From: Alphaproteobacteria bacterium RIFCSPHIGHO2_12_FULL_63_12 | Lineage (GTDB): Bacteria; Pseudomonadota; Alphaproteobacteria; Caulobacterales; Parvularculaceae | Length of the DNA stretch: 47,598 nucleotides | NCBI GenBank assembly: GCA_001767925.1 | Contig: MEMM01000132.1 | Location: 39,807-87,404, forward strand | Reading direction: 5' to 3' | In this document: piece after piece, positions 29,240-31,902 of the stretch | Numbering within the stretch: position 1 is the stretch's first letter | How the letters are laid out: each line of letters begins with the position of its first letter | Notes under the pieces: generated by a model | What the model was told of the DNA's origin: nothing | The model's input: the letters and a program-made list of their open reading frames with translations, nothing else | The model's database searches: none | Position numbers and translations under genes: made by a program

Positions 29240-29268
29240 CCGCCATCGCCGCGCCTATGGGGAGGCAT

Positions 29269-30717
29269 ATGCGTTTCTGGAAGGACGAAGACGGCGCTGT
29301 TCTTATCTATGTGACGCTTATTCTCGCGGCGTTCATCGGCGTCGGCGGCCTTGCGCTCGACGCCGGCCGCGCCTTCACGCTGCGCGAGGAAATGCAGCAG
29401 GCGGCGGATGCGGCGGCGCTCGCCGGCGCCTGGCAGCTTGACGGCACGGCGGCGGGCGCGGCGCGCGCCGACGCCGCCGCGCGCGCGGTCGTCTCGAACA
29501 GCCAGAAATGGGCGTCCGGAGGATCAGCGGCGGTGACGATCGCCGGCGGTACAGCGGGCGTTCAGTTTCTTTCGACGGTCCCTTCAAGCGACGACGCCGC
29601 GCTCACCTTCACGGCCGCGGCGCCGTTCGACTACGTCTGGGTGAAAACGACAGCGACGAATTTCGATCCTTGGTTCATGCGCCTGTTCGGCTTCAACGCT
29701 GTGACGCCGGTCGCAGCGGAGGCAGTGGCGCGCAAAGGCAGCTCGCAATGCCAGGTGACGCCGCTCTTCATGTGCCTGCCGGGCGGCGCCTCCTTTAATC
29801 CGACGGCGTGGGTCGGCCATCAGGTGTTGATGAAAGCGGCGCAGGGCGGCAGTTGGACCAACGGCAATTGGGGACTGCTCGATACGCCGGGCGGCTCGCA
29901 AAGCGCCGGCGCGCTTGCCAGCATGATCGCCGGCGTCAACGGACTGCCGCAGTGCATCGACAGCGCCGGCGTCGACACCAAACCCGGCAACGTCGCGTCG
30001 ATTTCGGCGGCGTTCAACGTTCGCCTCGACGTCTATGAGAACCTGCCCGGCAATGTGAACTACCAGAACACGGCCGGCTATCCGCCTGCGGAGCATGTTC
30101 AAAAAGGCACGGCGGCAAACGCCTCGTGCACGGCGCGGCCGACCTTTGTCGGCGGGGCGATTCCCCCCGGATTTCCGCGCGACGCCGACATCATTTCGAG
30201 CGGCGGCGCCACCAGATTCGGCAATGGTCAATGGGATTGTCTCACGTATTGGGCGCAGGCCCATCCCGGCGACACCCTCAACATCCCCGCCGCCTGCTCA
30301 TCGGCGGGCGGCATGACGCGATACGAAATGTATTTGCACGAGATCACCTCGCTCGCGAACAAGGCGCTTATCCCGGATCTTTCCGGCTCGGGCGGCGATA
30401 ATGGCGATCCCGCCGAGCGCTCGCCGATATGTTATACTGGCGGCCCGATTCCGCCGACGCCGACAACCCTCTCGCAACGTATCAATGACCGGCGCATCTT
30501 TACGGTCGCCGGCGTCGATTGCTCGACGATCGCGATCAACGGCAACACGCCAAATGTCCCCGTGCAGCAATATCTGTCGATGTTCCTGACGGAACCCGCA
30601 GGGACGCAGGGCTCCACCAACGGCGACGTCTACATGGAGATCGTCGGCTTCGACCAGGGCGGCGGCGGCGGGCTCGTGCCCATTCAGCTTCGCGAATGGA
30701 CGGAGCTTGTCCGGTGA
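29269..30717 (+). CDS. TadG-like pilus assembly protein
   Basis: DEDGAVLIYVTLILAAFIGVGGLALDAGRAFTLREEMQQAADAAALAGA. Confidence 0.88.
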   Translation: MRFWKDEDGAVLIYVTLILAAFIGVGGLALDAGRAFTLREEMQQAADAAALAGAWQLDGTAAGAARADAAARAVVSNSQKWASGGSAAVTIAGGTAGVQFLSTVPSSDDAALTFTAAAPFDYVWVKTTATNFDPWFMRLFGFNAVTPVAAEAVARKGSSQCQVTPLFMCLPGGASFNPTAWVGHQVLMKAAQGGSWTNGNWGLLDTPGGSQSAGALASMIAGVNGLPQCIDSAGVDTKPGNVASISAAFNVRLDVYENLPGNVNYQNTAGYPPAEHVQKGTAANASCTARPTFVGGAIPPGFPRDADIISSGGATRFGNGQWDCLTYWAQAHPGDTLNIPAACSSAGGMTRYEMYLHEITSLANKALIPDLSGSGGDNGDPAERSPICYTGGPIPPTPTTLSQRINDRRIFTVAGVDCSTIAINGNTPNVPVQQYLSMFLTEPAGTQGSTNGDVYMEIVGFDQGGGGGLVPIQLREWTELVR

Positions 30718-31313
30718 TTTTCGGCGGCCGCCTCAGTCGACGCGCGCCCCGCCTCTCCCTTGGGAGAGGCCAGCGAGGCGAAAGCCGAGCGGGTGAGGGG
30801 CGATCCTTCCAGCAGGACGCCAGCGGCGCCGCGCTCGTCGAGTTCACGCTGGTGTTTCCGCTGCTGCTGGTCTTTCTCGCGGGGCTTTCCGAACTCGGCT
30901 TCGCCGTTCACCAGCAGCATATTGTCCAGAAGGCGGTGCGCGACGCGGCCCGCTACGCCGCGCGCACGAATTATGCGCTGAAATCCTGTCCCCTTTCGGC
31001 ACAGCCGGAATGGGCCCAGATGGTGACGAATACGACGACCGTCGCTCTAAGGGGTAATCTCGACGCCGCGGCGCCGCTGTTGATCCCGACTTGGGACGGG
31101 TCGCGCGGCATCGACGTGCAGGTCACCGAGGCCTGTTTTGATCCGGCGTCGACGACGCCCGCGATTTTCAGCACGGCGGGCGCCGGCAATCGCATCCCCG
31201 TCATCACGGTTTCAGCTTCCGCGCCTTTCGCCGGCGTCGGCTTCCTGTCGCTGGTCGGATTATCGGCATTTGAGGTCACGGCGACGCACTCGGAAGCCTG
31301 GGTGGGTCTTTGA
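30714..31313 (+). CDS. TadE-like pseudopilin with repeat-derived N-terminal leader
   Basis: GTG start overlapping the tadG stop (GTGA); FQQDASGAALVEFTLVFPLLLVFLAGLSELGFAVHQQHIVQKAVRDAARYAAR. Confidence 0.82.
   Translation: MIFGGRLSRRAPRLSLGRGQRGESRAGEGRSFQQDASGAALVEFTLVFPLLLVFLAGLSELGFAVHQQHIVQKAVRDAARYAARTNYALKSCPLSAQPEWAQMVTNTTTVALRGNLDAAAPLLIPTWDGSRGIDVQVTEACFDPASTTPAIFSTAGAGNRIPVITVSASAPFAGVGFLSLVGLSAFEVTATHSEAWVGL
30747..30800. repeat. intergenic-type palindromic repeat located inside the tadE-like coding sequence
   Basis: ccccgcctctcccttgggagaggccagcgaggcgaaagccgagcgggtgagggg; inner palindrome cctctcccttgggagagg. Confidence 0.82.
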
Positions 31314-31314
31314 C

Positions 31315-31902
31315 ATGATGAAGCTCTTGCGATTCTTCCGCGAAACCCGCGCCGCGGCGCTCGTCGAGTTCAGTTTCATCGCGCCGCTGCTCTTTCTCCT
31401 CACCTTCGGCGTCGTCGAGCTCGGCTTTTTCTATTTTCAGTATCAGGCGCTCGATGCGGCGACGCGAATGGGCGCGAGGGTCGCCGCGACAAGGGGCCCG
31501 GCCATCACCGGCATGCCCGACTGCGGCGTCGCAGTGACGACGTCTCCCGGGAATTTCTGTTCGGCGACGGGCGCCGGAACGCAATGGTCGGCGACCTGCA
31601 CCGGCACGGCGTTAACCACTTCGGGCGGGGCCGTCGCTTCGGGGTGCGACGCCGCGATACTGGGCCGGATCTTGCAAGAGATGCAGCTTGTCTACCCCTC
31701 GCTGCAGCAGAGCAACATCGTGGTCGCTTTCTCCGGTTCCAATCTCGGCTTTGTCGGCAAGACCCGGCCTGTGCCGCTTGTCACCGTTCGGGTGACCGGC
31801 GTGGCGGCAAGCCTGCCGGTGCTCACCGCGCTCGGCGTCGGGACGTTCCTGATGCCTTCCTTCTCGACCAGTCTTCCTGCCGAAGACCTCGCGGGGACCT
31901 GA
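31315..31902 (+). CDS. TadE-like pseudopilin
   Basis: ETRAAALVEFSFIAPLLFLLTFGVVELGFFYFQYQALDAATRMGARVAA. Confidence 0.87.
   Translation: MMKLLRFFRETRAAALVEFSFIAPLLFLLTFGVVELGFFYFQYQALDAATRMGARVAATRGPAITGMPDCGVAVTTSPGNFCSATGAGTQWSATCTGTALTTSGGAVASGCDAAILGRILQEMQLVYPSLQQSNIVVAFSGSNLGFVGKTRPVPLVTVRVTGVAASLPVLTALGVGTFLMPSFSTSLPAEDLAGT

Follow-up and report, generated by a model that had tools for sequence, protein, structure and literature searches.

Introduction

Short palindromes that are read in frame within protein genes have been described as the palindromic elements (RPE) of Rickettsia and as intragenic REPs. RPE lie in unrelated protein genes and are absent from the orthologues; nearly half of the Rickettsia copies are found inside genes, occasionally at the N-terminus (PMC10969869, PMC3733652). 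The REPs of the GTAG and CGTC families are intergenic repeats, often arranged as inverted dimers, of which some lie wholly within ORFs, in frame, and some of these are N-terminal (Di Nocera 2013, PMC3733652).

Two further families are close by structure to the repeat described below. TMECO, the G-C-rich intrastrand triplex motif of E. coli, has a second loop of 3 nt (TTA/CCG), and its copies in E. coli K-12 are always intergenic (Holder 2015, PMC4666352); the ITxF triplex search was limited to loops of 1-6 nt (PMC4666352). The Rfam family whalefall-1 (RF01762) was presented with certainty as a non-coding RNA, with whalefall metagenomes as its sole source (Weinberg 2010, PMC2864571). The protein concerned here, TadE, is a pseudopilin. 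The leaders of type 4 prepilins are cytoplasmic, variable in length, subject to the positive-inside rule and removed by a prepilin peptidase, which for TadE is TadV (PMC10191384).

Here, we show for an alphaproteobacterial stretch of 47,598 nucleotides (the window) that a copy of a dispersed two-hairpin repeat lies in frame in the leader of a tadE gene, and we compare its structure, its relatives and its placement in genes with these described systems.

Results

The tadE gene follows a tadG-like gene and precedes a second TadE-like gene (Table 1), in a locus that also carries genes for a secretin and a CpaF-type ATPase. Its assignment is based on the PF07811 match and the prepilin site; a search of the contigs with TadE returned distant relatives only. 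The end of tadG, the GTGA overlap at the tadG/tadE junction and the TadE body are all conserved at the orthologous loci L057 and L058 of two genomes of the same genus (G007 and G002, respectively).

Table 1. Features of the tadG/tadE region, in window coordinates
Feature	Position	Strand	Basis
tadG-like gene	29257..30717	+	ORF; PF13400 Tad, 31.1 bits (Pfam); stop overlaps tadE start (GTGA)
tadE, 199 codons, leader with 22-codon insertion	30714..31313	+	PF07811 residues 38-80, 54.7 bits (cut-off 22.9)
GTG start codon of tadE	30714..30716	+	nearest start 5' of repeat; position conserved in L057 and L058
In-frame insertion, 66 bp, 22 codons (SRRAPRLSLGRGQRGESRAGEG)	30735..30800	+	protein alignment with two orthologues
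Dispersed repeat copy	30751..30800	+	model R1 matches 30751-30799, 69.3 bits
Hairpin 1, GCCTCTCC-CTTG-GGAGAGGC	30751..30770	+	fold; pyrimidine and purine strands of triplex layout
Hairpin 2, covarying stem-loop of variable sequence, forming the second loop of triplex layout	30773..30790	+	fold, covariation, survey sequences
GGGTGAGGG tail, candidate third strand of triplex	30791..30799	+	invariant in alignment A1; covaries with pyrimidine strand across relatives
Prepilin-peptidase site G↓AALVEF	30825..30845	+	sequence; equivalent sites in homologues; cleavage predicted from TadV/TadE literature (PMC10191384)
Second TadE-like pseudopilin gene	31315..31902	+	PF07811, 50.9 bits; ordinary 13-residue leader

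The repeat copy (GCCTCTCCCTTGGGAGAGGCCAGCGAGGCGAAAGCCGAGCGGGTGAGGGG) has the sequence and position that the original prediction gave it, and lies, as proposed there, in frame between the GTG start and the GAALVEF motif. The codon listing places all other in-frame starts at this end of the gene further upstream (ATG 30696, TTG 30519) and contains no ATG, GTG or TTG between the repeat and the motif; the first start codons 3' of the repeat, CTG 30849 and GTG 30852, are both beyond the cleavage motif. The repeat would therefore be translated if TadE is made. Could the insertion instead have killed or truncated the gene, leaving the repeat untranslated? The N-terminus is a common place of mis-annotation in REP-containing ORFs (PMC3733652), but besides the lack of a start between repeat and motif, initiation at GTG 30852 would lose the cleavage site, and the ORF is unbroken and has ordinary codon usage, the motif and the tadE body downstream of the insert being intact as well. 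We regard a non-functional or truncated tadE as very improbable.

Alignment with the orthologues, a comparison suggested along with the original prediction, gives exactly 22 gap columns in both proteins; the bounds of the insertion were placed by hand at a conserved RSF rather than from a conspecific site lacking the insert, and since the orthologues are only 53-56% identical, the exact boundary and any target duplication are unreadable. The leader here has 38 residues compared with 16 in each orthologue (VKRICGIRSFRRDQRG or VRRFGLIGRFRRDSRG), a lengthening that had been foreseen, and without the 22 codons it has exactly the orthologue length. Among ~40 homologous leaders the usual length is ~11-26 residues. 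The 54-bp unit proposed at first does contain the repeat, but it corresponds to the 50-bp repeat plus CCCC, and the insertion by alignment is the longer stretch given in Table 1.

The codons of the insertion score -0.19 for coding signal, like non-coding DNA, as against 0.22 for the TadE body, and therefore give no sign that the inserted stretch is adapting to coding; the copy retains the full repeat consensus and its non-native codons. Counted through GGGTGAGGG it measures 49 nt, and the frame leaves it as GGT GAG GGG, whereas the commonest form of the repeat, 50 nt long, would in this frame run into a TGA stop. Two features thus make the repeat readable here, a net insert divisible by three and a 49-nt copy that avoids the TGA.

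As the genome is a draft (84.7% complete, 172 contigs) and the repeat is multi-copy, an assembler may have joined the repeat wrongly into tadE. Several contigs (C66, C76, C103 and C112) end in the repeat, so assemblers do stumble on it. However, the present contig runs through the repeat for 87 kb, the flanks of the insert are adjacent genes in the two orthologous genomes, and an artefact would have had to keep the net insert a multiple of three. Of all the explanations we consider, this one seems the least probable.

The 3.38-Mb assembly has 25 occurrences of the core 17-mer CTCTCCCTTGGGAGAGG and 0 of a reversed-pattern control. BLASTN, the copy count proposed earlier, finds 30 copies, the best others being 92% identical to the tadE copy, and a covariance model built from 21 distinct copies finds 40 at E<=1e-4, with repeat sizes of 45-60 bp; the repeat is of the intergenic, dispersed type, as had been expected. 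The tadE copy is the sole full copy in the window, and a search beside it for a second, degenerate copy, with filters off, matched nothing but the opposite strand of hairpin 1. Nearly all other copies in the genome form head-to-head pairs; the tadE copy is solo.

The closing pair of hairpin 1 is kept by a compensatory exchange of G-C for A-T. Hairpin 2 varies freely in sequence while its pairing is largely kept, with four pairs showing double-sided changes; 26 double-changed cells were observed versus 14.8 in shuffles, and 0 of 500 shuffles reached 26, although the shuffles ignore the relatedness of the copies. The same two-hairpin layout is present in many relatives, with up to 89 copies per genome.

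Hairpins or a triplex between tadG and tadE could tune how the tad genes further downstream are translated or transcribed, the in-frame reading being incidental. A role in post-transcriptional control has been suggested for REPs that sit at the 5' end of an ORF (PMC3733652), and as RNA the repeat folds strongly (-36 kcal/mol, z -3.3), 37 nt past the start codon. In its 146-nt context, however, the fold is no stronger than that of shuffled sequence (z 0.5), the orthologues manage without the repeat, and the repeat lies after and not before the start codon; we consider such cis-regulation decidedly unlikely.

The order of strands in the repeat, CCTCTCCC / GGGAGAGG / GGGTGAGGG, is the layout of an intrastrand triplex. 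Across relatives, copies with T in the pyrimidine strand have A in the third strand in 73 of 73 cases, and those with C have G in 8 of 9, so that the pairs of pyrimidine strand and tail number 73 T-A, 8 C-G and 1 C-T, with no T-G and no C-A; as the copies within one genome are related, these counts reflect few independent events, which inflates the Fisher p-value. Where the pyrimidine T shifts to C, in G004 and G017, which belong to two genera (for instance at L142 and L199), the tail A shifts to G. Copies of these two genomes carry CCTCCCCC paired with GGGTGGGGG in place of the usual strand and tail. The Watson-Crick pairing of hairpin 1 does not tie the tail to the covarying positions; a joint change of pyrimidine strand and tail is what would be expected of base triplets, with Hoogsteen T:A.A changing to C:G.G. 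TMECO has the same three strands in the same order with inverted pairs, but its second loop is 3 nt long, compared with the 18-nt covarying stem-loop of the tadE copy, and its K-12 copies, unlike this one, stay between genes. The ITxF search would miss the present repeat because its second loop exceeds the permitted length. By predicted structure the repeat is closest to the triplex motif, departing from it in the second loop, and a physical triplex is a candidate.

In a search of Rfam, whalefall-1 was the sole match. The two share a layout of hairpin, stem-loop and GGGUGAGG, and the RF01762 model matches the tadE copy from one end to the other, at 18.5 bits, below the gathering score of 37. 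Copies in the relatives G014 and G013 lie above that score, with 44.8, 42.3, 38.4 and 38.4 bits, and most other copies in relatives reach 25-36 bits. The threshold is passed at L178:1304-1358 (-), L180:1284-1339 (-) and, at L168, 1351-1402 (-) and 1423-1476 (+). Because copies of the repeat in relatives, where it is often paired head to head, pass the Rfam threshold, whalefall-1 looks like a dispersed repeat, which suggests that this orphan 'RNA' is more likely a dispersed DNA repeat.

Is the insertion into tadE an isolated event? In its own genome, tadE is the only one of 21 sites that lies in a gene with doubtless coding flanks on both sides. In relatives, 5 of 191 sites (~3%) lie in frame inside genes by a strict test, namely an ORF that spans the repeat with both flanks scoring best in that frame. 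In the ThiC of G007 (L157, minus strand; element 1389-1441), two head-to-head palindromes form a 42-residue in-frame insert that is missing from the solved ThiC 3epm and from five orthologues of the genus. In the PutA of G013 (L176:1303-1430), a repeat pair adds 43 residues in frame immediately ahead of the aldehyde dehydrogenase core; the residues that flank it, 692 and 693, are neighbours in the aligned 5kf6 chain. A repeat pair is likewise in frame in GlyS, the glycyl-tRNA synthetase beta subunit, of G031 (L304:1123-1238, minus strand); in the pyruvate dehydrogenase (PDH) E2 of G044 (L218:1369-1430), a copy lies in the flexible linker from the lipoyl to the E3-binding domain. The fifth host is an unnamed protein of G004 with no Pfam match. 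These intragenic copies use both strands of the repeat and several frames. Judged from these cases, genes in the relatives repeatedly absorb the repeat in frame.

Three other loci bear on coding repeats in a different manner. The ThiC of G000 (L223) has a hairpin at the same site as that of G007, and an adjoining gap of 18 Ns hides the frame. A CysD (C9) was considered as a second in-frame case with a C-terminus made by the repeat, and was dismissed because the 28 Ns between MEKK and the repeat leave room for the KQEGYF-stop of the orthologues (KAEGYF in one). Finally, a repeat pair covers the 5' end of a cupin gene of the same genome as tadE (L012:1452-2051), whose product has a signal-peptide-like N-terminus; the true start may be a GTG with which the repeat ends.

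Discussion

How did the repeat come to lie in the TadE leader, and what does it do there? The repeat is probably a tolerated, nearly neutral in-frame passenger rather than a domesticated part. A solo copy of the dispersed, triplex-type repeat would have entered tadE at its 5' end; the frame would have been kept because the net change was +66 bp, and the copy happened to be open in the frame that it occupied. Translation from the ancestral GTG would then run through the repeat and produce the longer leader. All leader residues ahead of G↓AALVEF, including those encoded by the repeat, are predicted to be removed by prepilin peptidase, and the mature pseudopilin would be unchanged because the repeat peptide leaves with the leader, so that the insertion could persist. 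The solo state of the tadE copy, in a genome where the others are paired, is a point against this explanation.

The original prediction spoke of domestication, which finds no support in a copy that still has the consensus and non-native codons and whose peptide should leave with the leader. A form of exaptation may nevertheless be considered, in which the arginines of the repeat provide the positive charge by which the leader orients the pseudopilin within the membrane, replacing lost basic residues next to the site (RRDQR to QQDAS). With the insert the leader has a net charge of +5, equal to that of both orthologues, and without it +1; over the 12 residues preceding the site the charge in this TadE is -1, the lowest of the ~40 homologous leaders. 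Charge is the sole hint that the repeat is of use in the leader. It comes from one species, at a divergence that permits no test of selection, some homologous leaders also have 0 to +1 near the site, and the repeat is unchanged from the intergenic consensus; exaptation therefore seems unlikely to us, and we continue to favor the passenger.

The resemblance to RPE that had been noted holds in part. By its placement, in frame in genes and absent from orthologues, the repeat appears to work like an RPE, and the likeness rests on this placement and not on RPE sequence; by type it belongs to a triplex-like family overlapping whalefall-1. In contrast to RPE, 20 of the 21 sites in its own genome are outside confidently coding genes, and unlike Rickettsia the host is GC-rich, with relatives of 2-5 Mb. 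At the base of the palindrome the listed copies lack the conserved tag, GTAG or CGTC, that marks the REP families. The Y1 transposase (RAYT, PF01797), sought as a mobiliser, has no match in this genome (85% complete); of 37 relatives just 5 have it, and its presence does not track the copy number of the repeat. Compared by placement, predicted structure and Rfam match, the repeat appears to be a different element from the RPE, and it adds a new family and a new lineage to the known in-frame palindromes, RPE and intragenic REP.

We put forward tentatively, and with rather more doubt than confidence, that a whole bacterial family to which this genome is related carries a mobile triplex-forming repeat, identical with the whalefall-1 'RNA', that recurrently enters genes in frame (the TadE leader, ThiC, PutA, GlyS and PDH E2), as a second, non-Rickettsial system of coding palindromes, and that in TadE the repeat now makes up the leader's charged part. 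An orphan Rfam 'RNA' family may thus be a dispersed DNA repeat with a triplex layout. The tadE locus offers a clean case of repeat DNA turned coding where the cost should be near zero, in a leader that would be cleaved off, while in the conserved enzymes the cost is not obviously zero; with the leader case beside the enzyme cases, the tolerance of proteins for repeat insertion therefore becomes testable.
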